Shown here: positions 6,263-48,831 of the stretch, in pieces
How the letters are laid out: every line of letters starts with the position of its first letter
Position numbering within the stretch: position 1 is the first letter of the stretch
Origin: a virus
Direction: 5' to 3' (one strand)
Virus record (IMG/VR): IMGVR_UViG_3300046170_000519
Location: 124,001-188,000 of that record
DNA length: 64,000 bases
Made by a program: the position numbers and the translations under genes
The notes under the pieces: model-generated
The model's input: only the letters and a program-made list of their open reading frames with translations
Databases searched by the model: none
Told to the model about the DNA's origin: nothing

Positions 6263-9200
6263 TTATTTATATGTTTTTCCACATATATCTATAAATCCAT
6301 TTTTTGAATATTCTTCATGCTCTGGAGTTCCATATAATATATTTAATTCTCCATTCCATACTGTTAAATCTAAAGAATTGAAAACATTTCCAATTTTATT
6401 TGCAAGTCCATGACTATAAACTCCATCATTAAAGCCAGCAAAATGCAAACCACAACCTTTTAAGGAGTCGCCGTCTTTTTTCATTAATAGTGAGCCTGAG
6501 TCACCAGAATCTGAAAAATAAATATTTTCCCCCTTGCCTCTATAGTATAAACAATCAGTGAAAATAGCTTTATGTTGCATAGATGGAACAACTTTAATGG
6601 AGCCCGTAGAGGGATCTAGAATTCTATCACTACAATAGTAAACATAACCCATCCAAGAGTCAGAAATTATTGAAGGATGTTCAGTAAAAGAGTTTTCAGT
6701 GGTAGAGCCCGTCGTCCTACCGCTTTTAAACACAAAATCTCCAACTTTTGCATCTGAGAATGATGGGGTATTATTAGTTAAATCAATAATCGAACTAGAG
6801 GGGAAAACACTTGCGCCAAAATTTATTGATGCAGCATCTACTGTATTAATTGGTTGAAAGCCATGGTTTCCATAGGAAGTTTTATTAAAAGGATGTGGAA
6901 AAAACAAAGGTTCGATATAATTTGTAGATCCAATATTTACCGATCCTGCTCCAAGGACAGTGTTTTGATCTAGAAAAGACGGACTAGAGATTTCTAAATC
7001 TAAAAGATTTTTATGAAAATCAGAAAGAGTGCCAGAATGATATTCAGAGTCTCCATTACCTCGTTCATCCGTAGAGCAACAAAAAGGGACTCCAAAAAAT
7101 AAAACATTTAAAGGTTGATTACTTGGCTTGGAACTCCAAGAAGTGTAATATATTTTTTTAAAAGTTTCATCAGAGGTTTGATAAGAAAATTCCATATACT
7201 CATCAGACATTAATATTGGATAAAAGCGAAAACTATTATTTTTAGATTTGCCATTTTTATATATGAGTGTGCCGTCATTTTTAAAAATAGAAACATTCGT
7301 CTCGACCTTGGAATATATAGAAGTTAAATTGCTTAAATCACTGTAAGTTAAACAAAAAGGTGAAGAATCTAGATTTAAACCCTTAAAAATATACTTCCTA
7401 CCAGCTTCAATAAAAGCAAAATCAGAATTGTCAAAAGCTGGATTTTTAAAAGAATCTCCAGAAATATCTTCAAAAATAAACCCGTTTTCATAAGATACAT
7501 TATAAGATATAGGAGGTTCTGTTTTTGGATCATAAACTTGAGAGCCGATAACATGGTTGTTAGTAACACAAACAAGCTCTTGGTCTTTATTGAGAGCGGA
7601 AAAACCTAAAGTTCCTGCAGAATAATCATTCGCCACCCCAATTGATACTCCTCCAGGAATGCACTTGTAGGGTTTTTTGTCAGAGTCGTAGGAATTTTGA
7701 GGGCAGCCATGAATTGATTTTTTTGAGGGAGATAGGCCATTAACTTTTTCGCCGCATGCGCCAAAAGCAAACATCTTAGGGACTTCTACGACATCTGTTT
7801 TAAAACCCTCTATCGAAGAGGGTATCAAATCTTCCTTCTTCAGTAAACTTTTTCCAACTTTTTTTGAAACCCCTACAGCAATACATTCTTGATGAGAATC
7901 TACACCATCTATAATTTTTGTAGAGACAAAAACACTTTCTACATTATTTTTTTGTAAAAGAAATTGAGTTGACGAAAAATTCATAGCTTGAGAGATATTT
8001 TTAAAATTATTTGAAGAGTTGAAATCGGAACTTGATGAAGATTCTAAAAGAAAAGAATTGCAGGATTCACAATCAATAAAGCCATCATAATAAGAAAGAT
8101 CGAAAGAATCTTGACATAGCTGGGCATAAGTTAAACGTTTGAGTCCACCCATGTAGCCATGGTTAAAACAATTATAGCTAACTGTATCAATGTCACCTTT
8201 TACATTTAAAGTAATATTTCCATAAAAATGTTCAATATTTAACCCGTCCACAACTTTGGTTCCCGCACTGTTTGAGCCAGTGACTTCAAGCACACTCGAA
8301 TCAGCCACAAATCCTAGAGCATGGATTTGGGGGACATTTTCAATTATATAAGTGCCTAAACCAATTCCAATAAATGAATGATTGTCATAATCAACTCCAT
8401 TAAATATAATTCGACTTGAACCATCAATACTAAAAGTATTGTTACCTTTCGATGATGGAATCAAGCATTGGACATATTGACCAGTAGATCTAAAACATTT
8501 ATCATTGTAGATAATAGAATCAGAAGATTCTGGTATCACAATTTTCTCTAAAGTTTTTCCTGTCGGTCTGGGAGGGCAGAGAGAACAATCATCAAAATTT
8601 TCGAAATCGCAATTTTCACCAGAAGATGTTGGAGTAATTGATAGAGTTGGGGGGATGCAATGATTGCAATTAATCGTATCGTCAAGAGAAGTTTGTGAAG
8701 GAGTTATAGGGATAATTAAACCAAAACTAGGAGTTATAGTTGGGAGAGGTAAAAAGTAAGGGCTTTTTGTTTTTGTATGAGTGAATGATCCTGTTTCAGT
8801 TTGCGTATAGGTTGCTGATTGAGTTTTAGTGAATGAACCTGTTTCGGTTATAGTATAAGAACCTGTTTCGGTTTGAGTTTCGGTCTCAGTCTGAGTCTGA
8901 GTCTCTGTTTGAGTCTGAGTACCAGTTTCTGTTTGGGTCTGAGTACCAGTTTCTGTTTGGGTCTGAGTACCAGTTTCTGTTTGAGTCTCCGTAGGTGTCG
9001 GATTCTCTATTATCGTTGCTGTAGGGGGCTGTGTGTTAGTTAAACTCGGAACTGGCTGTGTGTTAGTTGAACTCGGAACTGTTTGAGTGGGAGGAAGTTC
9101 TACCCTGTCAGTAAATGGAGCAGTCTCCGTAGGTGTCCCACGAAGAGGATTCTCTGTCTTTGTTCCTGTCTCAGTTCGAACTGTTAATGTCGGAGTATTC

Positions 9201-15200: not shown

Positions 15201-18200
15201 TCTGTATGAACCGTATCTGTATGAACCGTATCTGTATGAACCGTATCTGTATGAACCGTATCTGTATGAACCGTATCTGTATAAGCTGTATTTGAAGGAG
15301 TCAACCTCGTTCCTGTGGGAGTAAGCTTTGTTCCTGTAGGAGTAGGAGTGAGCTTTGTTCCTGTAGCAGTTACAACCGTATCTGTATGAGCTGTATCTGT
15401 ATGAGCGGTATCTGAATGCGGTGTATCTGAATGCGGTGTATCTGAATGCGGTGTATCTGATGGATTAGGGCTATATGTAGGAAGAGGACTATCGGTAGGA
15501 AGAGGGCTATCGGTTCGGCAGCTAATATATTCACAACTTCCATCGTCACAATTTGCCCAAGAGCTATAATTGCAAGCCGATTGATCTGTGCAACCTTTAT
15601 TTCTAAGACCGCTACAAAGATCTGGGTCATGGCAACCCGCATCTGGATCGAAGCTACAATCTGCAGCAGATTTACAACCAAAATTTCCTGAACAACAACC
15701 ATCACATTGACAATCAGCATCAGGATCATAATTACAATAGCCTGGATTTTGACAACCAATAACACCTTGACCGCAGTTACCCTGAGAATCTTTACAGCAA
15801 ATATTGTCTAAACGACCTCCAGAACAACATTCGCTTTCATCATGACAAACTCCTGTTGGATCTCCTGTATAAAAAAGGCAATCGTTTTGATTTAAACACG
15901 CGAATTGAATGCAGTAAGTTGGGGATAAAGTTGGAGTTTTGTCTGGAGAAGGTGAGCTTGTTAAAGTTAACGGAGGTGTGTTAGTGTTTGTTGGACAAAT
16001 AGTACCAATGCAGAGATTTTCTAAATGACATATCGCAGATCTATCATAATTGCAATCCCCTAATGTTTGGCATCCCCCGCTATGACCGCTACATAAAGTA
16101 TTGTCAGCGCATTTTGTTGGGTCATCATCATAATAGCAATCGGTCGCTATCTTACAAACATAACCTTCGCAACAAGGAGCTTCAGCAGGACCAGTTCTGT
16201 GTTTACAGCATGTTGTAAGATCATCACAATCTGAACCATCAAAAGCTGGATCAAAAGGATCTGGGCAGCCGTAAAGATAACATGTTTCAGTATTTGTTAC
16301 TGGCGGAGTCTCTGTTTCTGTAGCAGGTGGGGTTTGTGTTGGAATAGTCGCTGTAGGAACAGGGACAGTATCTGTTGGGCAAGGTTGACAACCCCCAGTT
16401 AAGCAAGCTACATTACTATTTCCAAGATGATTTAAACACTCATTGCTAGGCGAAATGACATCATTGCATGCAAACTGTGGATGCCTAGCAGCTAAGGCAC
16501 CATTAGGACACCAACAGTATTCGTTAGTCTTGGCACAATCTTTTGGTGGGGTAGCTCCGTAATTAACATCACAAGGGTCATCACAACTGCAGGTAGAATC
16601 ATTTCTTTTAAATTCTGGATCCCCTATTTCTCGACATACACCGCAAGCATCAATGTAGTAGCATTTATCGTTTTGAACCCCTGTAGAGGTAAAACTACAA
16701 CTATGAGATGTATCTGGACAAGGCTGAAAAGTAGCTTCAACGCCAGTACCCGCTCCATAAACATAAGGGTCATCACAATCAGGAACACATGTTCTTGATG
16801 GAGTAACAGGTGGAGATGGAGTGTCTGCAGTAGGGCTGATTGTGTTTGTAACAGCAGGTGTGTCTGTTGGGCAAAGCTCTGGTTGAGGTGGACATCTACC
16901 CTCGCAATCAGGCTCTCCTTCGCATTTATCAGCATCCATTTTACACGCTGTTGGGTCGTAGTTACAATCACCTTGCAATAAACATCCCCCTTCCCTACCT
17001 GAGCAAAGGGAATCAGTGTCGCAACCTCTGTTCGGATCGAAATTACAATCTTTAGGATCTGGGCAACCTCTGTAAGTTCCTGAACATTTACTTGGATCAC
17101 TGCAAGGAGCATTAGGGTTAAAGTTACAATCATTAGCGTCTTTACAATCGCATTGATTTGGGCAATCCGAGCAAGATAAACTATATCCAGCTTGATAATT
17201 ATCAAAATTAGGTGGACCATAATTTTGGCCTGTCCATCGAGTTTCACAAAAACAACCCACATATGAAACAGCAAGTTCACAAGTTCCGTCTCCTAGAGCT
17301 GTAATTCCAGTAACTCCAGTAGTATAAATTCTTGGACCCGTAGACTGTCCTGTAATCGTATCGCAAGTGTAAACCGCTATACAAGGACCTGCTGTACATG
17401 TCTGAGTTTCTGTTCCACTATTTGTAGAGGTATCTGTATGAGCCGTATCTGTATGAGCCGTATCTGTATGAGCCGTATCTGTATGAGCCGTATCTGTATG
17501 AGCCGTATCTGTATGAGCCGTATCTGTATGAGCCGTATCTGTATGAGCCGTATCTGTATGAGCCGTATCTGTATGAGCCGTATCTGTATGAGCCGTATCT
17601 GTATGAGCCGTATCTGTATGAGCCGTATCTGTATGAGCCGTATCTGTATGAGCCGTATCTGTATGAGCCGTATCTGTATGAGCTGTATCTGTATGAGCTG
17701 TATCTGTATGAGCCGTATCTGTATGAGCCGTATCTGTATGAGCCGTATCTGTATGAGCCGTATCTGTATGAGCCGTATCTGTATGAGCCGTATCTGTATG
17801 AGCCGTATCTGTATGAGCTGTATCTGTATGAGCTGTATCTGTATGAGCCGTATCTGTGTAAACTAATGTTGGTGTAAGTGGAGGAGAATAGGTAGAAGTA
17901 TTACAATCGTATTCACATCCATCGACGCAGCTCGCTGATAAAGACATATCTTTATTAGTTTCATAATTGCAAGCATTAGGATCATTACACACGTCATTTT
18001 GACTACAAAGAGCGAGATTAACACAAGCTGGAGCTATTCCATCTTGAAAATCTGCAGAGCAGTAAGAAGTACTACCCGAAAGGTCATCGCCGCATGCATA
18101 ATCTTCACAACTACATTGAAATCCGTCATCGATTGTAGCATCAGGGTCATAATTTCCATAAGACCCATCATATAAAACATCCATGCAACCTAGTATTCCT

Positions 18201-20078: not shown

Positions 20079-21038
20079 TTAGTTCGTACAGTTGTATAAA
20101 ATTTCGTAATTAAAAGTTGTGGAATAAATAGTCGTTAAACCATTTGTTGTAGTTATGGTATTTTCGCTGTAAGAAATAGAGGTTTCAATCAAATAAGATT
20201 CGATACCATCTCTAGATCCACATAAGTTTATAACATCTTTTTCTGTTGGAGCCCTAGGATCTAAGCTGGGATGTTGAGAAGAACTCTGTTGTGTATTGCT
20301 GATTTCGAATGTACTATAATTAGAGGAAGATGGATCTAATACAGGAATAGCTTTAGGAACATTAAGAACATTATGGTGGCAAGGAGAATCTTGAACGCAA
20401 TCACTACATTTCGAATCATTCAAGCAAGCTGTAATTGAAACTTTATGATAACCATCTTTTTCAAAATCTATAGTATAATACTCTAAATTGAAATCAGAAG
20501 TTGATGTTGGCGTTGATTCATGATGCGGTAATTCTATATTAAAATTATATTTTTCATAATTATTAGATTTTACTTCTTTTATTAAATTAGATGTATTATT
20601 TTCATATACTTTTATATCCGCTTCATCAATGGCATTTAAATCTCCATCATGAAATAATCCGTAGTAGTAACTTTTATCTTCTACGTCCATAGTTCCATCA
20701 CAAATACTGCAAGCTTCGGAATTAGAAAGGATTGGTAATAAATCAGTAAAGTGATATTGATTATTATAATCTTTTCCAAAAAATCTTACATGTAAAGAAG
20801 CTTGAGAATAAGGTATAAATGCTGCAGCTCCTCGATTCGCCGCAACTTTTAATAGTCGAGGATATGATATATCAGTTGAAGTATGCTGTAATACTCCGTT
20901 AAAAGCTGGCGAACCATACACTCTAAATGGATTTGAATTATTAACAAAAACGATTAAACCTGGATTTCCTCCAGCATTAATGCATATAACATTACTGATT
21001 GAGACTCCTTGAAGAGGAGAATCACACTCAACATACAT
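20079..21038 (-). CDS. C-terminal globular part of the giant TETQ stalk protein
   Basis: The ATG at 21038 gives a 319-residue product (MYVECDSPLQGVSISN ... FNYEILYNCTN) that is beta-rich with several Cys pairs. This ATG is almost certainly internal. The same frame is open upstream through a further Cys-rich domain (ETCGFGLCGKYISCSY, about 21110-21490), a TPTTTLTDTDTHTPTPSEE linker and then the TETQ array to about 25480. No ATG, GTG or TTG occurs in that upstream stretch, so a gene finder will stop at 21038. I read this as the distal domain of the protein that starts at 40744. It is not recognised as an enzyme; a receptor-binding or cap role is inferred from its position at the end of a stalk. 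Confidence 0.7.
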   Translation of the reverse strand: MYVECDSPLQGVSISNVICINAGGNPGLIVFVNNSNPFRVYGSPAFNGVLQHTSTDISYPRLLKVAANRGAAAFIPYSQASLHVRFFGKDYNNQYHFTDLLPILSNSEACSICDGTMDVEDKSYYYGLFHDGDLNAIDEADIKVYENNTSNLIKEVKSNNYEKYNFNIELPHHESTPTSTSDFNLEYYTIDFEKDGYHKVSITACLNDSKCSDCVQDSPCHHNVLNVPKAIPVLDPSSSNYSTFEISNTQQSSSQHPSLDPRAPTEKDVINLCGSRDGIESYLIETSISYSENTITTTNGLTTIYSTTFNYEILYNCTN

Positions 21039-21483
21039 TTCTAAAGGTAATTCTTCTGATGGAGTTGGGGTATGAGTGTCTGTGTCTGTTAATGTAGTAG
21101 TCGGAGTTTCACAAGAAACACAGCATTGATCGCAAGAATCTTGTGGGTAAACATCATTAGCTTTAGGAGTATCAGTTGAATCTGCAGGAATAACTTTATT
21201 AATTAATAAATTATTGTTAAATTCCTGAGAATTTTTGAATTGACCTGCAGAACCTCCACAAGAAGAAGCTGAAACCGCATTACAGAAAGAAACATCAACT
21301 TGAGAGTCAAATACATAACATTTAGAGGTTGAGAAATCTTTAATAACACTTGGGAAATCAGCATAAGATTCAACTCCTATATAAGCTGGTAATGTAGCAG
21401 AAAGGCAGTTGCTAGGCTCAGAACCATCTCCACAGGTGTATGAGCAACTAATATACTTACCGCAGAGTCCAAAGCCACAAGTC

Positions 21484-36400: not shown

Positions 36401-39400
36401 AGTTTGTGTTTCAGTCTGAGTCTGAGTTTGTGTTTCAGTCTGAGTCTGAGTTTCAGTAAAGGTATTTGTTTCAGTCTGAGTCTCTGTTTCAGTCTCTGTC
36501 TCGGTCTGAGTTTGTGTTTCAGTAAAGGTATTTGTTTCAGTCTGAGTCTGAGTTTCTGTCTCGGTCTGAGTCTGGGTTTCTGTCTCGGTCTGAGTCTGAG
36601 TTTCTGTTTCAGTCTGAGTCTGAGTTTGTGTTTCAGTCTGAGTCTGAGTTTCTGTTTCAGTCTGAGTCTGAGTTTCTGTTTCAGTCTGAGTCTGAGTTTC
36701 AGTAAAGGTATTTGTTTCAGTCTGAGTCTGAGTTTCTGTCTCGGTCTGAGTCTGAGTTTGTGTTTGAGTCTGAGTCTGAGTTTCTGTCTCGGTCTGAGTC
36801 TGAGTTTGTGTTTCAGTCTGAGTCTGAGTCTCTGTTTCAGTCTGAGTCTGAGTTTCTGTCTCGGTCTGAGTCTGGGTTTCTGTCTCGGTCTGAGTCTGAG
36901 TCTCTGTTTCAGTCTGAGTCTGAGTTTCTGTCTCGGTCTGAGTCTGAGTTTGTGTTTCTGTCTCGGTCTGAGTCTGAGTTTGTGTTTCTGTCTCGGTCTG
37001 AGTCTGAGTTTGTGTTTCTGTTTCAGTCTGAGTTTCTGTCTCGGTCTGAGTCTGAGTTTCTGTCTCGGTCTGAGTCTGAGTTTCTGTCTCGGTCTGAGTC
37101 TGAGTTTCTGTCTCGGTCTGAGTTTCTGTCTCGGTCTGAGTCTGAGTTTGTGTTTCTGTCTCGGTCTGAGTCTGAGTTTGTGTTTCGGTCTGAGTCTGAG
37201 TTTGTGTTTCTGTTTCAGTCTGAGTTTGTGTTTCAGTCTGAGTCTGAGTTTCTGTCTCGGTCTGAGTCTGAGTTTGTGTTTCTGTTTCAGTCTGAGTTTG
37301 TGTTTCTGTCTCGGTCTGAGTCTGAGTTTGTGTTTCTGTCTCGGTCTGAGTCTGAGTTTGTGTTTCTGTCTCGGTCTGAGTCTGAGTTTGTGTTTCTGTC
37401 TCGGTCTGAGTCTGAGTTTGTGTTTCTGTCTCGGTCTGAGTCTGAGTTTGTGTTTCTGTCTCGGTCTGAGTCCGAGTTTGTGTTTCTGTTTCAGTCTGAG
37501 TTTCTGTCTCGGTCTGAGTTTCTGTCTCGGTCTGAGTCTGAGTTTGTGTTTCTGTCTCGGTCTGAGTCTGAGTTTCTGTCTCGGTCTGAGTCTGAGTTTG
37601 TGTTTCTGTTTCAGTCTGAGTTTGTGTTTCAGTCTGAGTCTGAGTTTCTGTCTCGGTCTGAGTCTGAGTTTGTGTTTCTGTTTCAGTCTGAGTTTGTGTT
37701 TCTGTCTCGGTCTGAGTCTGAGTTTCTGTCTCGGTCTGAGTCTGAGTTTGTGTTTCTGTTTCAGTCTGAGTTTGTGTTTCTGTCTCGGTCTGAGTCTGAG
37801 TTTCTGTCTCGGTCTGAGTCTGAGTTTGTGTTTCTGTTTCAGTCTGAGTTTGTGTTTCTGTCTCGGTCTGAGTCTGAGTCTGAGTTTCTGTCTCGGTCTG
37901 AGTCTGAGTTTCTGTTTCAGTCTGAGTCTGAGTTTCTGTCTCGGTCTGAGTCTGAGTCTGAGTTTCTGTCTCGGTCTGAGTCTGAGTTTCTGTCTCGGTC
38001 TGAGTTTGTGTTTCAGTCTGAGTCTCTGTTTCAGTCTCTGTTTCAGTCTGAGTCTGAGTTTGTGTTTCTGTCTCGGTCTGAGTCTGAGTTTCTGTCTCGG
38101 TCTGAGTCTGAGTTTGTGTTTCTGTTTCAGTCTGAGTTTGTGTTTCTGTCTCGGTCTGAGTCTGAGTTTCAGTAAAGGTATTTGTTTCAGTCTGAGTCTG
38201 AGTTTGTGTTTCTGTCTCGGTCTGAGTCTGAGTTTCTGTCTCGGTCTGAGTCTCAGTTTGTGTTTCTGTCTCGGTCTGAGTCTGAGTTTCTGTCTCGGTC
38301 TGAGTCTGAGTTTGTGTTTCTGTCTCGGTCTGAGTCTGAGTTTGTGTTTCTGTCTCGGTCTGAGTCTGAGTTTGTGTTTCAGTCTGAGTCTGAGTTTCTG
38401 TCTCGGTCTGAGTCTGAGTTTCTGTCTCGGTCTGAGTCTGAGTTTGTGTTTCAGTCTGAGTTTGTGTTTCTGTCTCGGTCTGAGTCTGAGTTTGTGTTTC
38501 AGTCTGAGTCTGAGTTTCTGTTTCAGTCTGAGTCTGAGTTTCTGTTTCAGTCTGAGTCTGAGTTTCTGTCTCGGTCTGAGTCTGAGTTTCTGTCTCGGTC
38601 TGAGTCTGAGTTTCTGTCTCGGTCTGAGTCTGAGTCTGAGTCTGAGTTTCTGTCTCGGTCTGAGTCTGAGTTTGTGTTTCAGTAAAGGTATTTGTTTCAG
38701 TCTGAGTCTGAGTTTCTGTTTCAGTCTGAGTCTGAGTCTGAGTTTGTGTTTCAGTAAAGGTATTTGTTTCAGTCTGAGTCTGAGTTTCTGTCTCGGTCTG
38801 AGTCTGAGTTTCTGTCTCGGTCTGAGTCTGAGTTTCTGTCTCGGTCTGAGTCTGAGTCTGAGTCTGAGTTTCTGTCTCGGTCTGAGTCTGAGTTTGTGTT
38901 TCAGTAAAGGTATTTGTTTCAGTCTGAGTCTGAGTTTCTGTTTCAGTCTGAGTCTGAGTCTGAGTTTGTGTTTCAGTAAAGGTATTTGTTTCAGTCTGAG
39001 TCTGAGTTTCTGTCTCGGTCTGAGTCTGAGTTTGTGTTTCTGTCTCGGTCTGAGTCTGAGTTTCTGTCTCGGTCTGAGTCTGAGTTTCTGTTTCAGTCTG
39101 AGTCTGAGTTTCTGTCTCGGTCTGAGTCTGAGTTTCTGTTTCAGTCTGAGTCTGAGTTTCTGTCTCGGTCTGAGTCTGAGTCTGAGTTTCTGTCTCGGTC
39201 TGAGTCTGAGTCTGAGTTTCTGTCTCGGTCTGAGTCTGAGTTTGTGTTTCAGTCTGAGTCTGAGTTTGTGTCTCGGTCTGAGTCTGAGTCTGAGTTTCTG
39301 TTTCAGTCTGAGTCTGAGTTTCTGTTTCAGTCTGAGTCTGAGTTTCTGTCTCGGTCTGAGTCTGAGTTTCTGTCTCGGTCTGAGTCTGAGTTTCTGTCTC

Positions 39401-40516
39401 GGTCTGAGTCTGAGTCTGAGTTTCTGTCTCGGTCTGAGTCTGAGTCTGAGTTTGTGTTTCAGTCTGAGTCTGAGTTTCTGTTTCAGTCTGAGTCTGAGTC
39501 TGAGTTTGTGTTTCAGTAAAGGTATTTGTTTCAGTCTGAGTCTGAGTTTCTGTTTCAGTCTGAGTCTGAGTCTGAGTTTGTGTTTCAGTAAAGGTATTTG
39601 TTTCAGTCTGAGTCTGAGTTTCTGTCTCGGTCTGAGTCTGAGTCTGAGTTTCTGTTTCAGTCTGAGTCTGAGTTTCTGTCTCGGTCTGAGTCTGAGTTTC
39701 TGTTTCAGTCTGAGTCTGAGTTTCTGTCTCGGTCTGAGTCTGAGTTTCTGTCTCGGTCTGAGTCTGAGTTTCTGTCTCGGTCTGAGTCTGAGTTTCTGTC
39801 TCGGTCTGAGTCTGAGTTTGTGTTTCTGTTTCAGTCTGAGTTTGTGTTTCTGTCTCGGTCTGAGTCTGAGTTTGTGTTTCAGTCTGAGTCTGAGTTTGTG
39901 TTTCAGTCTGAGTCTGAGTTTGTGTTTCAGTCTGAGTCTGAGTTTCTGTCTCGGTCTGAGTCTGAGTTTCTGTCTCGGTCTGAGTCTGAGTTTCTGTCTC
40001 GGTCTGAGTCTGAGTCTGAGTTTCTGTCTCGGTCTGAGTCTGAGTCTGAGTTTCTGTTTCAGTCTGAGTCTGAGTTTGTGTTTCAGTCTGAGTCTGAGTT
40101 TCTGTTTCAGTCTGAGTCTGAGTCTGAGTTTCTGTTTCAGTCTGAGTCTGAGTTTCTGTCTCGGTCTGAGTCTGAGTCTGAGTTTCTGTCTCGGTCTGAG
40201 TCTGAGTTTGTGTTTCAGTCTGAGTCTGAGTTTCTGTTTCAGTCTGAGTCTGAGTCTGAGTTTGTGTTTCAGTAAAGGTATTTGTTTCAGTCTGAGTCTG
40301 AGTTTCTGTCTCGGTCTGAGTCTGAGTTTCTGTCTCGGTCTGAGTCTGAGTTTGTGTTTCTGTCTCGGTCTGAGTCTGAGTTTCTGTTTCAGTCTGAGTC
40401 TGAGTTTCTGTCTCGGTCTGAGTCTGAGTTTCTGTTTCAGTCTGAGTTTGTGTTTCTGTTTCAGTCTGAGTCTCTGTTTGAGTCTGAGTACCAGTTTCTG
40501 TTTCAGTAAATGTGCT
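21484..40516 (-). repeat. 19-kb TETQTQ-coding repeat array
   Basis: A hierarchical array of 6-bp dipeptide codon pairs on the minus strand: ACT/ACA/ACC for Thr alternating with GAA/GAG or CAG/CAA, grouped as [14 protein letters not shown] and QTQT. More than 50 interruptions encode ETNTFTET (plus strand cagtaaaggtatttgtttcag). Variants near the 3' end contain TATKTQTRTQ. Larger blocks recur: the signature gtctctgtttcagtctctg near 22663, 24026, 25206, 27263, 28482, 34634, 35470 and 36473. The sense strand is almost entirely A, C and G and the plus strand T, G and C. Long plus-strand frames here are shadows of the repeat. Confidence 0.95.
31580..32520 (-). repeat. About 0.94-kb segment duplicated at 37356-38296
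   Basis: Two rare variants inside the array occur in both copies at the same spacing. These are gagtccgag (31696 and 37472) and gagtctcag (32476 and 38252), both offset by exactly 5776 bp. Intervening unit order also agrees. Beyond about 32520 the order diverges. Confidence 0.8.
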
Positions 40517-40744
40517 TGTCTGAGTCTCCGTTTCAGTATAAGTTACTGTAGGAGTATATGTATATGTTTGAGTCTGAGTCTCCGTTTCAGTATAAGTTAC
40601 TGTAGGAGTATATGTATATGTTTGAGTCTGAGTCTCCGTTTCAGTATAAGTTACTGTAGGAGTATATGTATATGTATCAGTATAAGTACTAGTTTCAGTC
40701 GGAGGAGACTGTATTAATTTTGAGCGTGCAAATACCGATAACAT
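34139..40744 (-). CDS. Giant Thr-alternating (TETQTQ) stalk protein, 5' fragment as sequenced
   Basis: The longest uninterrupted frame from the start of the locus, 2201 residues. After [15 protein letters not shown] the protein is low-complexity: three 18-residue units [18 protein letters not shown], a GTQTQ break, then about 1,800 residues of TETQTQ with ETNTFTET interruptions. Near 35134 the phase slips and the last about 330 residues ([10 protein letters not shown] ... KLSY) are an out-of-frame reading of the same repeat, not real protein. There is no signal peptide, transmembrane helix or globular head at the N-terminus. Alternation of Thr with Glu/Gln predicts an extended, strongly acidic rod, and such Thr tracts are classic O-glycosylation sites. 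It follows the 315-residue virion gene by 11 nt. A virion fibre or stalk role is inferred. Confidence 0.75.
40525..40686 (-). repeat. Three 54-bp tandem units encoding [18 protein letters not shown]
   Basis: The start of the TETQ gene contains three copies with a 54-bp period (tctccg at 40525, 40579 and 40633). The third degenerates after tatgtatatg into the unique N-terminus. Confidence 0.9.
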
Positions 40745-40755: not shown

Positions 40756-41703
40756 CTAGCCTTTGACTTTGAATGTTGCAGTGTATCCAAGATTACCCGC
40801 TCCAAACTTAGGTGATTGAGATAAATATAAAGTAGCTCCCTCTACTAAAGTTAAAGGAGAGGTGAAATCAGATTTTGAGTTTTTTTCATCTAATGGGTGT
40901 GTCCATGATTTTTCTGATTTTGTTCCATCTGCAGCTGATTGATTTAATGTTATTGTTGATTCTGTATTAGAACCTCCTGTTGTAAATATAGAAGCTGTAA
41001 CACTTAAAACTTTTTTGTTATGCCAGGAGGAGGGGACAACTATGATTGCATCTTCAAAATTAAAATTATCAATAAGTTCAGAAGCTGGAACATTATTTAT
41101 TGCAAAATACTCTTCTTCATTGGGGTATTTTTTCCAATTAGCTTCATCACGAGTCCAGACTCCGCCGTTTCCGTTTGATTCACCTTCTACTTTATGATTA
41201 ATCCAAGCATTTATTAAAGCTTGTGAAGGAGCATTATCCCCAGAAACTTGAGCATTGTACTGAGTAACAGAGATATCTCCAACAGCTGCATTATATAAAG
41301 TTTCATAATCATCAATCATAAATTGATAAGACTGGTTTTTCTCTATTACATAGACTACCATGCCTAATTTTAAACGACCAGAACTCATTAAATCTCTGTT
41401 TAGCTCTAATAAAGCAGGAGTAGTTATTATTTCAACACAGGGAGGGACCTCATTCCTGTTACAGCTTCTTGGAACTTCTTCTGTTCCACCAGGTGTATAT
41501 ATTAATGGTATAAAATTAAGAGGATCATCAAGTGGAATGCCTGTGACTCCATTAGTAGTACTATAAGTAATATTGTTTAAATGATAATATTCTTGTAAAC
41601 CACCAATGAGAGATGTCCCAGAAGTTACTCCAGTTTGAGAACTCATGGAAAAAGAATCTGCAACTTGTTTTGCTGTTAAATGTATGTGATCTGAAAAACT
41701 CAT
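40756..41703 (-). CDS. Putative virion structural protein (315 aa)
   Basis: Function not recognised. The protein starts MSFSDHIHLTAKQVADSFSM and has no membrane segment or signal peptide. A central segment (LKLGMVVYVIEKNQSYQFMIDD) and WTRDEANWKK look like parts of beta-rich phage tail or fibre domains. The C-terminal about 95 residues (VPSSWHNKKVLSVTASIF ... GNLGYTATFKVKG) resemble a small beta-sandwich tip domain. Unlike its neighbours it has no Thr stalk. It lies 9 nt after the 508-residue gene and 11 nt before the giant TETQ gene, so it belongs to the same late operon. It might be an attachment or adaptor protein for the stalk proteins; that is inference from order only. Confidence 0.75.
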   Translation of the reverse strand: MSFSDHIHLTAKQVADSFSMSSQTGVTSGTSLIGGLQEYYHLNNITYSTTNGVTGIPLDDPLNFIPLIYTPGGTEEVPRSCNRNEVPPCVEIITTPALLELNRDLMSSGRLKLGMVVYVIEKNQSYQFMIDDYETLYNAAVGDISVTQYNAQVSGDNAPSQALINAWINHKVEGESNGNGGVWTRDEANWKKYPNEEEYFAINNVPASELIDNFNFEDAIIVVPSSWHNKKVLSVTASIFTTGGSNTESTITLNQSAADGTKSEKSWTHPLDEKNSKSDFTSPLTLVEGATLYLSQSPKFGAGNLGYTATFKVKG

Positions 41704-41712: not shown

Positions 41713-43239
41713 TTATTTTGAAACAGCTCTCCATTTTACTCTATCGTTGCCACTATTATCAAAAGCAAAAGAGTTAGTCGATCTGTTGCCGTAAGTAGAA
41801 TAAACTTTATAAATCGTTCCATTAAAACTTACGTTATGAGAAGAAAGCACTGAGTCTGGTGATAATGTTGTGTCAACACCATTGATCGTTTTGATTATAT
41901 CAAAATTTGGAGATACATGATCAATAGGCAACCAGAAGCTGTAAATATATTTATTACCAGTTCCTTGAAAACAACCAGCGTTATTTCCGTAAGTGTTTTC
42001 TGGGATTGTAATTTCATTAAACAAACCGTCACCACTGAATTGATCAACGGGTATTTCTTGGAAGAAGCAAGATCCATAGACACTTGTACACTGTCCTGCA
42101 TAAGTTTCTCCACTGTAGCAAGTATTTTGGTTGTCAACAACACTTGTTATGTAATCAGCTAATTCAGAAGGTGAGTCTACACCATTAATTATAGTAAAAG
42201 ATTTTGCTGGTGAGACACTATTCGCGTTAAATAATTCCGCCCAGTCAAATGTAGAATAATCTGTTCCGCTAGCAAGAGGTTGCTCTGCTACTTTGTGAGG
42301 TTCAGCTATTAAGTAGCCAACAGCACTAGGATTAGTGCCGCCAGCTTCTGTTGGAGTGTTTGTTTCTGTCATAGTTTCTGTATTAGTTTGAGTCTGAGTT
42401 TCAGTCTGAGTTTGAGTTTCAGTCTGAGTTTGAGTTTCGGTTTCAGTTTGGGTAAATGAACCTGTTTCGGTCTGAGTTTGAGTTTCGGTCTGAGTTTGAG
42501 TTTCGGTCTGAGTTTGAGTTTCGGTTTCAGTTTGAGTTTCTGTTTCAGTTTGGGTAAATGAACCTGTTTCAGTCTGGGTCTGAGTTTCGGTCTGAGTTTG
42601 AGTTTCGGTCTGAGTTTGAGTTTCGGTTTCAGTTTGAGTCTCTGTTTCAGTTTGGGTAAATGAACCTGTTTCAGTCTGAGTCTGAGTTTCAGTATAAGTT
42701 TGAGTTTCTGTTTGGGTCTGAGTTTCTGTTTCAGTTTGGGTAAATGAGCCTGTTTCAGTCTGAGTTTGAGTTTCTGTATAAGTTTGAGTTTCTGTTTCAG
42801 TCTGAGTTTCTGTTTCAGTCTGAGTTTCTGTTTCAGTCTGAGTAAATGAACCTGTTTCAGTCTGAGTAAACGAACCTGTTTCAGTCTGAGTAAATGTAGA
42901 TGTATCTGTTTCCGTGAATGTAGGAGTTATTCCACAATGAGAAATTCTTTGATCAGAGGAGGTTGAGTAAGGGCTAACAAAAGCATGATTAATAGTTATT
43001 GATTTACCTTGTTGTAATTCAATATAATAAACTTTTCCGCATTCTAATTCTGAAAAAGATTGAGATGAACTAGCTGCAGCAATCCAAGATTTTGCAGACC
43101 CAGAATCATCAATTTGCCAAACCGTATTTATTTCAGATTTATGAGAATTAAGAGGAAAATTAGTACAACTAGATAGGCTTTGAGTTCCTGGACAGAAACC
43201 ATACCATATGAAGTTATATTTTTTATTTAAGAGGGCCAT
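41713..43239 (-). CDS. Stalked virion protein (508 aa): head, TETQ stalk, C-terminal domain
   Basis: The N-terminal domain (about 1-105) starts NFIWYGFCPG and contains LECGKVYYIELQQGKSI. This resembles the N-terminus of the 944-residue protein next door (YYGWYGTCP, LECGKAYKIILKPGQG), so the two share a head domain. Residues about 108-290 are a stalk of [11 protein letters not shown] blocks repeated at roughly 36-40 residue intervals. The C-terminal domain (about 295-508) is beta-rich with several Cys and repeats the phrase 'INGVDS/INGVDT'. A virion fibre is inferred. It is the first gene of the operon leading to the TETQ locus, and a palindromic TGTGTAAA motif lies 38 nt upstream. Confidence 0.8.
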   Translation of the reverse strand: MALLNKKYNFIWYGFCPGTQSLSSCTNFPLNSHKSEINTVWQIDDSGSAKSWIAAASSSQSFSELECGKVYYIELQQGKSITINHAFVSPYSTSSDQRISHCGITPTFTETDTSTFTQTETGSFTQTETGSFTQTETETQTETETQTETETQTYTETQTQTETGSFTQTETETQTQTETQTYTETQTQTETGSFTQTETETQTETETQTQTETQTQTETQTQTETGSFTQTETETQTETETQTQTETQTQTETQTQTETGSFTQTETETQTQTETQTQTETQTQTNTETMTETNTPTEAGGTNPSAVGYLIAEPHKVAEQPLASGTDYSTFDWAELFNANSVSPAKSFTIINGVDSPSELADYITSVVDNQNTCYSGETYAGQCTSVYGSCFFQEIPVDQFSGDGLFNEITIPENTYGNNAGCFQGTGNKYIYSFWLPIDHVSPNFDIIKTINGVDTTLSPDSVLSSHNVSFNGTIYKVYSTYGNRSTNSFAFDNSGNDRVKWRAVSK

Positions 43240-43264
43240 TTTTCGAATAAATACTAAAAAAGAA

Positions 43265-43285
43265 TGTGTAAATTGTTTTTACACA
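43265..43285 (-). promoter_or_regulatory. Candidate late promoter motif within a TGTGTAAA palindrome
   Basis: TATATTTTTTTGTGTAAA on the minus strand (TGTGTAAA at 43278-43285) is followed by AACAA and the inverted copy TTTACACA (43265-43272). The motif ends 38 nt before the ATG at 43239, a longer gap than at the other copies. The perfect 8-bp inverted repeat could also act as an operator. Confidence 0.45.
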
Positions 43286-43325
43286 AAAAAATATAGTTTT
43301 GTTTATTTTTTGCTAAATACATAAT

Positions 43326-46160
43326 TTATAAAGTTAAAATACATTTCCCCTCAGATATATCACACTGATAACATTTATCATTATATGAAAGAATGATATT
43401 ATTGCTAGCAAATTCTCCAACAGATGTTGCCCCCATAATAAAACTCATTGAGCTATTATCTGATAGCCATATATCGATAGTAAAAGGAAGGCTGGTTGTT
43501 GATTTAGATATGTTTGGTAAACATACGCTTGAGTTTCCAACTAAACCTACATGAACTCCAGATAAAGTAATAACCTCTGAAGAAACTGGATCTATAATTT
43601 CTTGTATATTTGAGGAAATATCCACAGAATTTTGGCAGCAAGAAGTTGATGTATTGGTTGGGGTGCTTGGAAAAACAATAATATGAGTTAAAGTTCTTGT
43701 TTCAGTCTGAGTTTGGGTCTCTGTTTGAGTTTCAGTCTGAGTTTGTGTTTCTGTCTCCGTCTCTGTTTCAGTCTGAGTTTCAGTTTCTGTTTCGGTAAAT
43801 GTATTTGTCTGAGTTTGAGTCTCTGTTTCAGTTTGAGTCTCTGTCTCTGTTTGAGTCTGAGTACTAGTTTCTGTCTCTGTTTCGGTCTGAGTCTGGGTCT
43901 CTGTTTGAGTTTCAGTCTGAGTTTGTGTTTCTGTCTCTGTCTCTGTTTGAGTCTGAGTACCAGTTTCTGTCTCTGTCTCTGTTTGAGTCTGAGTACCAGT
44001 TTCTGTCTCTGTCTCTGTTTCAGTCTGAGTCTGGGTCTCTGTTTGAGTTTCAGTCTGAGTTTGTGTTTCTGTCTCTGTCTCTGTTTCAGTCTGAGTTTCA
44101 GTTTCTGTTTCGGTAAATGTATTTGTCTGAGTTTGAGTCTCTGTTTCAGTTTGAGTTTCTGTCTCTGTTTCAGTCTGAGTACCAGTTTCTGTCTCTGTCT
44201 CTGTTTCAGTCTGAGTCTGGGTCTCTGTTTGAGTTTCAGTCTGAGTTTGTGTTTCTGTCTCTGTCTCTGTTTCAGTCTGAGTTTCAGTTTCTGTTTCGGT
44301 AAATGTATTTGTCTGAGTTTGAGTTTCTGTCTCTGTTTCAGTCTGAGTACCAGTTTCTGTCTCTGTCTCTGTTTCAGTCTGAGTTTGTGTTTCTGTCTCT
44401 GTCTCTGTTTCAGTCTGAGTTTCAGTTTCTGTTTCAGTTTGGGTTTCTGTCTCTGTTTCAGTCTGAGTACCAGTTTGAGTCTCTGTTTCAGTTTGAGTCT
44501 GAGTCTGGGTCTCTGTTTGAGTTTCAGTCTGAGTTTCAGTTTCTGTTTCGGTAAATGTATTTGTCTGAGTTTGAGTCTCTGTTTCAGTTTGAGTCTCTGT
44601 TTCAGTTTGAGTCTCTGTTTCAGTTTGAGTTTCTGTCTCTGTTTGAGTCTGAGTACCAGTTTCTGTCTCTGTCTCTGTTTCAGTCTGAGTCTGGGTCTCT
44701 GTTTGAGTTTCAGTCTGAGTTTGTGTTTCTGTCTCTGTCTCTGTTTCAGTCTGAGTTTCAGTTTCTGTTTCGGTAAATGTATTTGTCTGAGTTTGAGTCT
44801 CTGTTTCAGTTTGAGTTTCTGTCTCTGTTTCAGTCTGAGTACCAGTTTCTGTCTCTGTCTCTGTTTCAGTCTGAGTTTGTGTTTCTGTCTCTGTCTCTGT
44901 TTCAGTCTGAGTTTCAGTTTCTGTTTCAGTTTGGGTTTCTGTCTCTGTTTCAGTCTGAGTACCAGTTTCTGTTTCTGTCTCTGTTTCAGTCTGAGTCTGG
45001 GTCTGTGTTTGAGTTTCAGTCTGAGTTTCAGTTTCTGTTTCGGTAAATGTATTTGTCTGAGTTTGAGTCTCTGTTTCAGTTTGAGTCTCTGTTTCAGTTT
45101 GAGTCTCTGTTTCAGTTTGAGTTTCTGTCTCTGTTTGAGTCTGAGTACCAGTTTCTGTCTCTGTCTCTGTTTCAGTCTGAGTCTGGGTCTCTGTTTGAGT
45201 TTCAGTCTGAGTTTGTGTTTCTGTCTCTGTCTCTGTTTCAGTCTGAGTTTCAGTTTCTGTTTCGGTAAATGTATTTGTCTGAGTTTGAGTCTCTGTTTCA
45301 GTTTGAGTTTCTGTCTCTGTTTCAGTCTGAGTACCAGTTTCTGTCTCTGTCTCTGTTTCAGTCTGAGTTTGTGTTTCTGTCTCTGTCTCTGTTTCAGTCT
45401 GAGTTTCAGTTTCTGTTTCAGTTTGGGTTTCTGTCTCTGTTTCAGTCTGAGTACCAGTTTCTGTTTCTGTCTCTGTTTCAGTCTGAGTCTGGGTCTCTGT
45501 TTGAGTTTCAGTCTGAGTTTCAGTTTCTGTTTCGGTAAATGTATTTGTCTGAGTTTGAGTCTCTGTTTCAGTCTGAGTACCAGTTTCTGTCTCTGTCTCT
45601 GTTTCAGTCTGAGTCTGGGTCTCTGTTTGAGTCTGAGTCTGGGTCTCTGTTTGGGTCTGAGTACCAGTTTCTGTTTGAGTCTCCGTCTCTGTTTCAGTGA
45701 ATGTATTTGTCTGGGTTTGAGTCTCTGTTTCTGTTTCTGTTTCTGTTTCAGAAATTGTTGGAGATACTGTCGGGGTTCCATCAGCACAACAACCTAAAGA
45801 TAGTCTATATATATCTGTAGAACTTGAATGAGAAAATTGAAATTCAGGAATATCAACAAATCCTTGCCCTGGTTTTAGAATAATTTTATAAGCTTTTCCG
45901 CACTCTAAGGATTTTATTCCAAGGAATGGAATTTGACTTTTAGTAGCTGAACTCGAATAAGAAGACTCTGAAACTAAATCTTCAAAAGGATGTATAGCAT
46001 AATAAATTTCTGGATGATTGTGATCGTTGTTATTAGAATCTCCCGCATCAATAGTTACTAAATCAAAAGGGATACATTTCGCAGCACTTTCTTCAGGACA
46101 AGTCCCATACCACCCATAGTAAATTAGGTAATTGGATTGATTTTGATCTAAGCGAGCCAT
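43326..46160 (-). CDS. Stalked virion protein (944 aa): head, long TETETQ stalk, C-terminal domain
   Basis: The N-terminal domain (about 1-130; NYLIYYGWYGTCPEE, LECGKAYKIILKPGQG) resembles that of the 508-residue protein downstream. Residues about 135-815 are a Thr-alternating stalk of blocks [15 protein letters not shown] and [15 protein letters not shown], organised in 222- and 270-bp sub-blocks that form a 492-bp unit. The C-terminal domain (about 820-944) begins after IIVFPSTPTNTSTSCC and is beta-rich, with two Cys pairs. There is no membrane segment. One base separates it from the 889-residue gene upstream, so they are co-transcribed. A fibre role is inferred. The 699- and 694-residue frames overlapping it are repeat shadows. 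Confidence 0.8.
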   Translation of the reverse strand: MARLDQNQSNYLIYYGWYGTCPEESAAKCIPFDLVTIDAGDSNNNDHNHPEIYYAIHPFEDLVSESSYSSSATKSQIPFLGIKSLECGKAYKIILKPGQGFVDIPEFQFSHSSSTDIYRLSLGCCADGTPTVSPTISETETETETETQTQTNTFTETETETQTETGTQTQTETQTQTQTETQTQTETETETETGTQTETETQTQTNTFTETETETQTETQTETQTQTETETETETGTQTETETETQTETETETQTETETETETQTQTETETETETGTQTETETETQTETETQTQTNTFTETETETQTETETETETQTQTETQTETQTQTETETETETGTQTQTETETQTETETQTETETQTETETQTQTNTFTETETETQTETQTQTQTQTETETETETGTQTETETETQTETETETQTETETETETQTQTETETETETGTQTETETETQTETETQTQTNTFTETETETQTETETETETQTQTETQTETQTQTETETETETGTQTQTETETQTETETQTETETQTETETQTQTNTFTETETETQTETQTETQTQTQTETETQTGTQTETETETQTETETETQTETETETETQTQTETETETETGTQTETETETQTQTNTFTETETETQTETETETETQTQTETQTETQTQTETETETETGTQTETETETQTETETQTQTNTFTETETETQTETETETETQTQTETQTETQTQTETETETETGTQTQTETETETGTQTQTETETETQTQTETQTETQTQTETETETSTQTQTETETQTETETQTQTNTFTETETETQTETETETETQTQTETQTETQTQTETRTLTHIIVFPSTPTNTSTSCCQNSVDISSNIQEIIDPVSSEVITLSGVHVGLVGNSSVCLPNISKSTTSLPFTIDIWLSDNSSMSFIMGATSVGEFASNNIILSYNDKCYQCDISEGKCILTL
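44555..45538 (-). repeat. 492-bp tandem duplication in the stalk of the 944-residue protein
   Basis: The marker cggtaaatgtatttgtctg ends just before 44117, 44303, 44555, 44777, 45047, 45269 and 45539. The intervals 222+270 repeat as a 492-bp unit (44555-45046 and 45047-45538), in frame, with few base differences. Confidence 0.85.
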
Positions 46161-46161
46161 G

Positions 46162-48831
46162 TTAACTTATTGTTATAGAATAAACACCTCCGTTAAGATT
46201 TACGGTTTGACCCTCTAGCATCTTTACCATGTCTTCTACACTGGTGAATTCTGGGTAATATGTATCTTTAGGTTGGAATGGGGAGTAATATGATTTGAGC
46301 ATCATACCTTCAACATACAAATGGTTTTCTACCGAAATAACCGTTTCTGCTTGTACGAATCTAGGGCCTGAAGAAAAGAAAGAATTCCATTGTCCAGGAT
46401 CGCTAGTCCATTCTAGTATAAAAGTCGAATCTGGTACAAGATAACGTACATATAAACCACCAGCATCTTCTTCAACAGTAAGACCTGATAGTTTTGTTAC
46501 CATGTCTTCTACACTAGCGAATTCTGAATAATATGTATCTTTAGGTTGGAATGGGGAATAATATGATTTGAGCATCATACCTTCAACATACAAATGGTTT
46601 TCTACCGAAATAACCGTTCCTGCTTGTACGAATCTAGGGCCTGAGGAAAAGAAAGAATTCCATTGTCCAGGATCGCTAGTCCATTCTAAATAAAACTTTT
46701 TCAATCTAGGAGCTGGCGTTTCAGTTTCTGTTTGAGTAAATGTTTCGGTAGTTGTTGGTGTTGGGATGATGCTGTTTACATTAACTAATATAATTGTGCT
46801 CTGATTAGGGCCTGTAAGCTCTCCTATCCAGCATTCTCCTCCATAAGTATATTTTATTGAACCATTAGAAACACCAAATGAAAGAGTTACATATCCTGTA
46901 AAGGTTGGATTTTGAACAGAGTCTTGAATGAAATAAGATCTATTCGTTGTATCTGATACATCTAAATGGTAAAAGCAAAGAGTGCCTCCATTATCAAAAC
47001 CATTTACATTAAAACCTGTATCCGCCGAAAATTGTGATCCCGTAGTTCTTGCTTGAATATCCCCAAACCCATCACAGCAATTAGGCTCAGAAGTTTGTGT
47101 TTCTGTTTCAGTCCCTGTTTGGGTTAAAGTAAATGAGCCTGTCTCTGTTTGTGTTTCTGTATCAGTCTGAGTTTGCGTTTCTGTCTCAGTTTGGGTTTGT
47201 GTTTCTGTTTCGGTCTGAGTCTGAGTATGAGTTTCTGTTTCAGTCTGAGTCTGAGTGCCAGTTTCTGTTTCAGTCTCTGTATCAGTCTGAGTTTGCGTTT
47301 CTGTCTCAGTTTGGGTTTGTGTTTCTGTTTCGGTCTGAGTGTGAGTATGAGTTTTTGTTTCAGTCTGAGTCTGAGTGCCAGTTTCTGTTTCAGTCTCTGT
47401 AGTCGTCTGAGTTTCTGTCTCTGTCTCAGTCTGGGTTTGCGTTTCTGTCTCAGTTTGAGTTTGCGTTTCTGTTTCTGTCTCAGTTTGAGTTTGTGTTTCT
47501 GTCTCGGTCTGAGTCTGAGTTTGTGTTTCAGTCTGAGTCTGAGTTTCTGTTTCTGTTTGGGTAAATGTATTTGTCTGAGTTTGAGTATCTGTTTGGGTCT
47601 GAGTGCCAGTTTCTGTTTCAGTCTCTGTAGTCGTCTGAGTTTCTGTCCCTGTCTCAGTCTGAGTTTGCGTTTCTGTCTCAGTTTGGGTTTGTGTTTCTGT
47701 TTCAGTCTGAGTCTGAGTTTGTGTTTCTGTATCTGTATGGGTCTGAGTTTCTGTCTCGGTCTGAGTCTGAGTCTCTGTTTGAGTCTGAGTACCAGTTTCT
47801 GTTTCAGTAAATGTGTTTGTCTGAGTTTCTGTCTCGGTTTGAGTTTGCGTTTCTGTTTCTGTCTCGGTTTGAGTTTGCGTTTCTGTTTCAGTCTGAGTCT
47901 GAGTTTGTGTTTCTGTTTCAGTCTGAGTCTGAGTTTCTGTTTCTGTTTGGGTAAATGTATTTGTCTGAGTTTGAGTATCTGTTTGGGTCTGAGTGCCAGT
48001 TTCTGTCTCTGTTTCTGTTTCGGTCTGAGTCTGAGTTTCTGTATCTGTTTCCGTAAATGTATTTGTCTGAGTTTGAGTTTCTGTCTCTGTTTGGGTTTGG
48101 GTTTCGGTTTGGGTAAAAGAACCTGTTTCAGTTTTTGTTTCTGTTCTTGTATTAGTAAATGTATTAGTATAAGTTTGGCTGTTTGTCGCAGTTTCGGTTT
48201 GGGTATCTGTATTTGTTTTAGTATGAGTTTGAGTCTCTGTTTCTGTATTAGTATCAGTTATTGTTGAAGTTTGAGTTGTTGTGTAAGACCCTGTTTCGGT
48301 TTGAGTTGGTGTTTCAGTTTCTGTTCTGGTTTGAGTTTGCGTGAATGAACCTGTTTCGGTTTGAGTCTCTGTAAATGAACCTGTTTCGGTTTCAGTTTCT
48401 GTATTTGAGGGAGTTTCCGTCGGGTTTGTTTCTGTTATAGTTGGTGATTTAGGTATTGAGTCTATTAGGAAATCAGGTTTATATATAGGATTATGGCAAT
48501 GAGAAACAGTAAAATCACAACTAGAACTATTTACTTGAATTTTTAAAAAATTAAAATTAAAAATTTGTTGATAATTTAATGTGTCTGAAGATTTTGAAGA
48601 AACCTCAAGGCTATAAATCTTTACCCAAGATTTTAAATTGATATCATTTGATACATATATCGATATATCACTAGGAGAATCAGATTTATTATTTAAAAAA
48701 AGTGTAAAAGAATGAGTTAAATGCTTAGATATATCATAGTTTATAGACTCCGAAGAGCCTGAATCAGTAGGAAGCAATGAACCCGAAAATTCATAGCTAA
48801 CTGATAGTGTTTTATTTAACTCAGACCTCAT
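46162..48831 (-). CDS. Stalked virion protein (889 aa) with duplicated C-terminal domain
   Basis: The N-terminal domain (about 1-125; MRSELNKTLSVSYEFSGSLL, SDISIYVSNDINLKSWVKIY) is beta-rich. Residues about 130-600 are a Thr stalk, more varied than the others (TKTNTDTQTETATNSQTYT, ETQTHTDTETQ). A Cys-containing domain follows (about 605-700), then a short TTTETFTQTETE linker. Finally there are two tandem copies of a 91-residue domain starting LEWTSDPGQWNSFFSSGPRF (about 705-889). It is the first gene of its unit, preceded by a hairpin that contains CGTGTAAA, and 1 nt before the 944-residue gene. A virion fibre with a duplicated tip is inferred. Confidence 0.8.
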   Translation of the reverse strand: MRSELNKTLSVSYEFSGSLLPTDSGSSESINYDISKHLTHSFTLFLNNKSDSPSDISIYVSNDINLKSWVKIYSLEVSSKSSDTLNYQQIFNFNFLKIQVNSSSCDFTVSHCHNPIYKPDFLIDSIPKSPTITETNPTETPSNTETETETGSFTETQTETGSFTQTQTRTETETPTQTETGSYTTTQTSTITDTNTETETQTHTKTNTDTQTETATNSQTYTNTFTNTRTETKTETGSFTQTETQTQTETETQTQTNTFTETDTETQTQTETETETETGTQTQTDTQTQTNTFTQTETETQTQTETETQTQTQTETETQTQTETETETQTQTETETQTNTFTETETGTQTQTETQTQTETETQTHTDTETQTQTQTETETQTQTETETQTQTETGTETQTTTETETETGTQTQTDTQTQTNTFTQTETETQTQTETQTQTQTETETQTQTETETETQTQTETETQTQTETETETQTTTETETETGTQTQTETKTHTHTQTETETQTQTETETQTQTDTETETETGTQTQTETETHTQTQTETETQTQTETETQTQTDTETQTETGSFTLTQTGTETETQTSEPNCCDGFGDIQARTTGSQFSADTGFNVNGFDNGGTLCFYHLDVSDTTNRSYFIQDSVQNPTFTGYVTLSFGVSNGSIKYTYGGECWIGELTGPNQSTIILVNVNSIIPTPTTTETFTQTETETPAPRLKKFYLEWTSDPGQWNSFFSSGPRFVQAGTVISVENHLYVEGMMLKSYYSPFQPKDTYYSEFASVEDMVTKLSGLTVEEDAGGLYVRYLVPDSTFILEWTSDPGQWNSFFSSGPRFVQAETVISVENHLYVEGMMLKSYYSPFQPKDTYYPEFTSVEDMVKMLEGQTVNLNGGVYSITIS
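46195..46690 (-). repeat. 273-bp tandem duplication encoding a 91-residue domain
   Basis: Two nearly identical copies 273 bp apart (for example agaattccat at 46381 and again at 46654) encode LEWTSDPGQWNSFF ... YYSPFQPKDTYY. Few residues differ, including AGT to AET and SEF to PEF, so the duplication is recent. Confidence 0.9.

Follow-up and report, generated by a model that had tools for sequence, protein, structure and literature searches.

Threonine-alternating stalk proteins of an uncultured tailed phage and their possible reading as mucin-like virion bristles

A cluster of neighbouring minus-strand genes in an IMG/VR virus record of 205,857 bp (G000; G000:C1) encodes proteins whose small domains are joined by long chains with threonine at every second residue, which raises the question of what such chains are for and whether they belong to the virus particle. 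The stretch analysed here, referred to as the window, comprises 64,000 nucleotides and corresponds to positions 124001-188000 of that record.

The stalk gene cluster and its phage

To judge from its gene content, G000 is a tailed phage (Caudoviricetes) without cultured relatives. Its terminase is related to those of many tailed phages (identity of up to 25%, E values down to 7e-19) and, among the proteins searched against 50,697 phage records, is the only one that reaches known phages; in the same records no cultured relative was found for the capsid-type protein (MCP), gene E, the N-terminus of gene B or the stalk protein of another contig (L034). There is a weak portal family match, and both the MCP, with 300 relatives in IMG/VR, and a tape-measure-type protein of ~3,500 residues were assigned by position and sequence only. 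A eukaryotic-virus reading was ruled out by the phage terminase, the tape measure and the tail module. Another record of this species (G003, 74,522 bp) has the end and the start of G000 directly joined (bridged by L221, at G003 37202/37203), so that G000 represents a complete, circularly closed genome, although the record is classed as linear; its opening point lies inside the tape-measure gene. Host assignment was attempted through MCP relatives in GTDB contigs, which scatter over unrelated MAG bins (Neomarinimicrobiota, Flavobacteriales, Verrucomicrobiales, Rickettsiales and others), and no host is therefore claimed.

On the minus strand, the cluster reads in the order H, G, F, E, D, C, B, with intergenic gaps of 1-86 nt and Thr-alternating tracts in every gene except E. 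Five stalk-bearing genes lie in the window, a sixth is cut by its edge, and two more are located elsewhere in G000. The features of the cluster are as follows (window coordinates):

2..2800, minus strand: gene A, first (N-terminal) third of a multidomain stalk protein of 2982 aa, probably starting at the ATG at 2794
6263..18409, minus strand: gene B, 4048 aa, with LysM, Cys-rich modules on Thr linkers and a C-terminal trypsin-like serine protease (by homology)
6266..8737, minus strand: gene B C-terminal region with the protease-like motifs NNHV, SDFAF and GDSGS, read by eye in the translation
17885..18409, minus strand: gene B LysM (PF01476, 4.2e-7, 30.3 bits vs a curated cut-off of 20.9) and first Cys-rich region
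18413..20053, minus strand: gene C, 546 aa, with short Thr linkers
20079..40744, minus strand: gene D, a 19.2-kb Thr-alternating array (~6,400 residues) followed by C-terminal domains
21060..21488, minus strand: Cys-rich CG[FY]GxCxxY domain closing the gene D stalk; the capsid-module stalk protein ends in a homologous region
40756..41703, minus strand: gene E, 315 aa, inside the cluster and without a stalk, with a weak phrog_23630 match (6e-4)
41713..43239, minus strand: gene F, 508 aa, N domain, stalk and C domain
43326..46160, minus strand: gene G, 944 aa, N domain, ~700-residue stalk and small C domain
46162..48831, minus strand: gene H, 889 aa, whose N domain is also found in two related phages, there with a different Thr stalk

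Gene A runs beyond the window, its full ORF spanning G000 117852-126800 (2982 aa), and holds ~700 stalk residues in several tracts; its N-terminal Cys-rich GCxDPxxCN module is common to gene B. The N domain of gene G is homologous to that of gene F, for which no relative was found in IMG/VR. Ribonucleotide reductase alpha and beta genes (52753-55206 and 5192-6205) bracket the stalk and sugar gene cluster, and a dUTPase-like gene is present at 4766-5185.

A first-pass annotation of this DNA had described at least six neighbouring genes built on one plan. Intact minus-strand ORFs with long Thr-alternating tracts are indeed present at four of these places (genes B, F, G and H) and a stalk ORF, partial in the window, at a fifth (gene A), but 20079-40744 does not form one ORF; the short linkers noted in the 546-residue protein are borne out in translation. 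Threonine makes up about half of the stalk residues. The DNA pattern for TETQTQ occurs 720 times on one strand vs 0 for the reversed control, and Thr occupies 4237 of the 4325 Thr-phase positions in the window, so that alternation at every second residue is far above chance, except that the TDTAH tracts of gene B consist of a 5-residue unit with Thr at positions 1 and 3 and hence a period of 5. Residues of the other phase vary freely, being Q/E in the window stalks and P/N/V/Q in other phages. The acidic character ascribed to the stalks holds for genes D, F, G and H, but many gene B stalks are Lys-rich.

Selection on the alternate residue and distribution among phages

Replacements of threonine were scored at centre residues whose six nearest same-phase neighbours were almost all Thr, with each distinct context counted and the neutral expectation derived from a single-step mutational null on the actual codons. 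Ser replaces Thr in 36 of 50 distinct contexts in the window (72% vs 21% neutral, p=1e-14) and accounts for 370 of 542 replacements in 73 contigs of other phages (68% vs 18% neutral), p-values that overstate independence because the stalk contigs are partly related to one another. In 55 of these 73 contigs Ser makes up at least half of the replacements, and Ala (3%), Ile (4%) and Pro (1%) are rare in them, though mutationally favoured; within the window, Pro is the second commonest Thr substitute (10 of 50). This excess of Ser indicates on statistical grounds that a hydroxyl group at every second residue is kept by selection.

Strict alternation combined with a hydroxyl requirement would also be compatible with a folded fibre in which Thr lines one face of a very long beta strand, in a beta-solenoid or amyloid-like assembly with hydroxyl or water binding; antifreeze proteins have such TxT faces. 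A folded fibre of this kind is nevertheless very improbable here. Val and Ile, which are good beta formers, rarely replace Thr, so beta-branching alone fails to explain the Thr phase. Furthermore, Pro, which breaks beta sheets, is the commonest x residue in most other phages (3507 of ~9,100 x positions), which makes a beta sheet ill-fitting, and the Glu residues on the opposite face of the window stalks are strongly charged.

The uniqueness implied by the first-pass annotation did not survive a wider search. A 16-fold alternation pattern was found in at least 120 IMG/VR stretches; ~70 among the matches listed represent protein stalks, and their composition is mixed. Among the other IMG/VR contigs examined, ~70 have Thr-alternating stalks that link small beta or Cys domains, the majority in a Pro-rich TPTNTPT form, and such a stalk is also present in one of 50 random contigs. 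The Thr-alternating architecture is therefore widespread, with G000 as an extreme case. A PHROGs family of no described function (phrog_15511) matches the Thr-alternating parts of window genes and of several unrelated stalk contigs, which means that this type of sequence is already in databases; however, its matches are confined to positions 201-482 of 511 (mostly 206-285) and fall on low-complexity stalk positions rather than on the flanking domains.

Several known systems resemble these stalks in part. The proline-threonine linkers of secreted bacterial enzymes and the mucin-like domains of eukaryotic viruses and hosts, which are glycosylated in known cases, are likewise Thr-rich, extended and hydroxyl-dense chains between folded domains. 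The window stalks differ in being almost without Pro, in their strict two-residue phase, in their length of hundreds to thousands of residues and in being phage-borne, with a glycosylation that is putative. Compared with mucin-like (PTS) domains, they display Ser/Thr-dense repeats, length polymorphism (a 50-aa difference that may stem from assembly) and selection for the hydroxyl; the Pro-richness of such domains is lacking in the gene D stalk (5 Pro in 6379 residues), but the stalks of most other phages do have it. In their presumed place and role, as elongated appendages with distal domains, the window stalks resemble phage tail fibres, tail spikes and neck whiskers, but they consist of low-complexity sequence that shows no sign of a beta-helical or coiled-coil fold, and no window stalk protein has a PHROG or Pfam match to tail-fibre, spike or whisker families. 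No paper describing Thr-alternating or mucin-like phage fibres was found in a literature search of incomplete coverage.

Location on the virion and the giant array

Two stalk genes of G000 lie outside the window among structural genes. One adjoins the tape measure and encodes 1067 aa with short linkers, and the other encodes a 985-aa protein in the capsid/neck module (G000 5800-8757), two genes after the MCP. The first ~170 residues of the latter form a core that recurs in 74 of 80 MCP-relative loci, usually as a protein of 150-218 aa, and that lies between the MCP and the tail genes in G000 and the relatives examined, a head-tail connector position. A Thr-stalk extension with small domains is attached to the core only where MCP identity is at least 77%, in eight loci (L129-L136, 8 of 8), while in two others (L203 and L204) the core carries a different C-terminal extension of ~75 residues with a GYTFSGW motif. 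As the stalk is present on the core only in the closest clade and the core stands nearly alone elsewhere, the stalk appears to be a secondary addition to a capsid/neck-block protein, and the core gene after the MCP seems to be a general attachment point for surface extensions. The predicted structure of the core (mean pLDDT 74) consists of helices and a hairpin; a fold search gave no PDB match, and the best viral-library matches were uncharacterised siphophage proteins (E 0.1-0.26). The distal Cys domain of the 985-aa protein is homologous to the end of gene D, and a scan with this domain recovered the 985-aa gene in the same clade.

The gene H N domain recurs in two related phages (L254 and L255), where it follows a GDP-fucose-synthase-like gene at the same locus as in G000 and continues into a Thr stalk (TVTETATITPT), inside which both contigs end. 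No 18-mers are common to the stalk DNA of G000 and that of this sister species, whereas stalks within one genome have some in common; the Thr phase thus persists between sister species despite unrelated stalk DNA.

Synteny and gene fusion together place the stalk proteins, with high probability, on the virion. An alternative is that they act away from it, as secreted or cell-surface proteins during infection, or that they are functionless selfish repeat arrays. The extreme repeat content of the giant gene D array would suit such an origin, but across a whole clade a stalk is fused to a conserved gene of the capsid module, which together with the conservation of the N and C domains renders it improbable; the Thr phase, kept without DNA homology and with Ser-specific replacement, argues against drift. 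Of the extended, mucin-like rod on the virion that had been proposed at first, the virion location and the extended mucin-like stalk are the best supported parts, through the capsid-module fusion, the common Cys domain and the hydroxyl selection, while the notion of a stiff, folded rod found no support.

Gene D represents the longest of these arrays. The frame that opens at the ATG at 40744 retains the stalk for ~1870 residues and closes at 34139; according to a phase model, the frame shifts near 35134 and 34148, three times within 30211-30128 and again near 25483. None of the five in-phase blocks contains a stop in its own frame, and the last one enters the genuine Cys domain. Imperfect repeats make up the array as a mosaic, with maximal exact repeats of up to 982 bp and only 1,732 distinct 30-mers across 19 kb. 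The frame breaks most likely stem from sequencing or assembly errors among near-identical repeats, and recent real frameshifts are possible. Since errors are to be expected in such repeats and the last block runs into a conserved domain, gene D is treated as probably a single gene of uncertain length.

Assembly is a concern for the whole family. G000 and the second record of its species are identical over 74.0 kb except for a 150-nt (50-aa) indel in the Thr stalk of the capsid-module gene (G000 5800-8757 vs G003 43002-45809) and a contig edge in another stalk; the indel reflects either repeat-length variation or assembly collapse. The ends of L254, L255, L129 (G001) and L220 (G003) all lie inside Thr stalks, so that stalk genes are probably under-represented in metagenome assemblies, and the tendency of short-read assemblies to break at these genes deserves a warning. 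For gene D only, the ~6,400-residue length could accordingly be a misassembly artefact, that is, an inflated and frame-broken array, an account somewhat short of an even chance and compatible with the other explanations. It draws on the long exact repeats, the confinement of all frameshift sites to the array, the 150-nt indel by which two otherwise identical records differ in another stalk, and the termination of another same-species record and of two related contigs in stalks; against this, the array is a varied mosaic rather than the product of simple duplication, and over kilobases its blocks hold their phase without stops. At 0.25-0.34 nm per residue, a stalk of ~6,400 residues may have a contour length of 1.6-2.2 micrometres, exceeding many host cells.

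Putative glycosylation and the role of the stalks

Genes for sugar metabolism adjoin the stalk cluster:

48907..52632, minus strand: GDP-L-fucose-synthase-like gene, second NAD-dependent sugar epimerase and glycosyltransferase (GT)-like genes (GT read by eye), co-directional with and directly upstream of gene H
55288..57040, minus strand: UDP-glucose dehydrogenase-type gene and NAD-dependent sugar epimerase, further upstream of gene H

Elsewhere, G000 encodes GT2, GT11 and Fringe-like transferases and three Sulfotransfer_2 genes, and in the sister species GT-like and sulfotransferase genes are located close to the same locus or within the tail module. A second glycan island at G000 67229-82622 contains GT2, GT11 (fucosyltransferase-type), Fringe-like, two Sulfotransfer_2 and GT-like proteins without a Pfam match.

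Fifty contigs with real stalks were compared with 50 contigs drawn by an arbitrary 14-mer. PF11397, a GlcNAc-transferase family that includes a known polypeptide transferase, is present in 14 of 50 stalk contigs vs 2 of 50 random contigs, the stalk contigs being longer on average and the per-base enrichment before re-sorting being p=0.03. The one random contig in which a stalk scan detected a stalk is one of the two with PF11397; re-sorted by presence of a stalk, the family occurs in 15 of 51 contigs with vs 1 of 49 without (p=1e-4) and, among contigs of at least 40 kb, in 13 of 32 vs 0 of 15 (p=0.002). GT2 (PF00535) is also enriched (17 of 50 vs 5 of 50). In L034, the stalk gene is followed 168 bp further on by a PF11397 gene and then by a GT34-family gene; PF11397 is absent from G000 itself. 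Sulfotransferases were considered as a stalk-specific marker and rejected, because they are present in stalk-less relatives too (counting by hand gave 5 in 283 kb from the stalk clade vs 11 in 1.82 Mb from stalk-less relatives). The glycan genes may also serve other ends, such as modification of the host surface or of DNA.

Glycosylation of the stalks is, on this evidence, slightly favoured. Its main competitor holds that the stalks are unmodified flexible linkers or entropic bristles, glycan-free low-complexity spacers between adhesin domains that are kept soluble and extended by Thr and, in this phage, Glu. Secreted enzymes commonly have Thr/Pro linkers between their domains, and the acidic gene D stalk, with a net charge of -1318 over 6379 residues, would stay extended by itself. 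Composition alone, however, leaves unexplained the strict two-residue phase, the dominance of Ser among replacements and the rarity of Ala, Pro and Ile, as well as the enrichment of PF11397 and GT2, and unmodified spacers are accordingly considered unlikely, albeit the least unlikely of the alternatives to a glycosylated virion stalk.

The preferred reading, whose chances are evenly poised, is that the stalk genes encode O-glycosylated, mucin-like virion bristles that carry small domains and, in one case, a protease. Conserved anchor and head domains would be joined on the virion surface by extended Thr-x-Thr-x chains, in which the Thr/Ser hydroxyl at every second position would be the functional feature, most likely as an O-glycosylation site. 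Glycans might be added within the host cell during infection, by glycosyltransferases of the phage or of the host, perhaps with sulfation. The 985-aa protein would sit at the capsid or the head-tail joint, and the products of the window genes probably on the tail or baseplate. As bristles or tethers, they could hold the small Cys-rich domains and the gene B serine protease off the particle, allowing distant host capture and shielding of the particle; this role in adsorption or shielding is the most tentative step of the proposal. Stalk length and x residues would change freely through repeat slippage and recombination, while the hydroxyl phase and the flanking domains are kept. Phage-encoded transferases are known to glycosylate virion proteins of their own particle; the acceptor in G000 would differ in being a dedicated, regularly spaced Thr polymer, and no paper that describes the glycosylation of such a stalk by phage transferases was found in the same literature search of incomplete coverage.

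A broader version of the glycosylated-bristle reading, put forward with some reserve, is that of a widespread, so far undescribed class of phage mucins in a few percent of environmental tailed phages, sugar-coated by their own polypeptide glycosyltransferases (here perhaps sulfotransferases too), under-sampled as assemblies break in the stalks, and reaching perhaps ~6,400 residues in one stalk of G000. If the reading is correct, some tailed phages carry their own mucin, a glycan brush able to change in length and composition through repeat slippage without loss of function, and such sugar-coated, mucin-like bristles would constitute a largely unnoticed kind of phage surface. This would change the view of the adsorption range, shielding and particle diffusion of environmental phages and would provide a testable substrate for many unexplained glycosyltransferases and sulfotransferases of large phages. 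Further members may be detected by a simple rule, namely Thr at every second residue with Ser as the sole common substitute.

Gene B is the case that unites a stalk with a protease. Its C-terminus matches a protease family (phrog_20754, 1.1e-24) and, by this homology and by its His-Asp-Ser motifs, qualifies as a predicted trypsin-like (S1) serine protease. A single-sequence structure model of the region reached a mean pLDDT of only 29.7, and no PDB sequence match was obtained; relatives of the region were found neither in INPHARED phages nor in IMG/VR, apart from one weak match in a distant MCP relative. The LysM domain of gene B could anchor the protein to the tail or the cell wall, and its protease-like end would then be an enzyme on a ~3,200-residue tether. 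In an unrelated phage, a stalk protein (L040 2139-9053) starts with a metalloprotease-like domain bearing HEQGHLMGSNH (HExxHxxGxxH), a second union of a protease with a Thr stalk, and a further stalk protein (L041 1072-5514) ends in a DDSGSMGS region that resembles a von Willebrand A domain.
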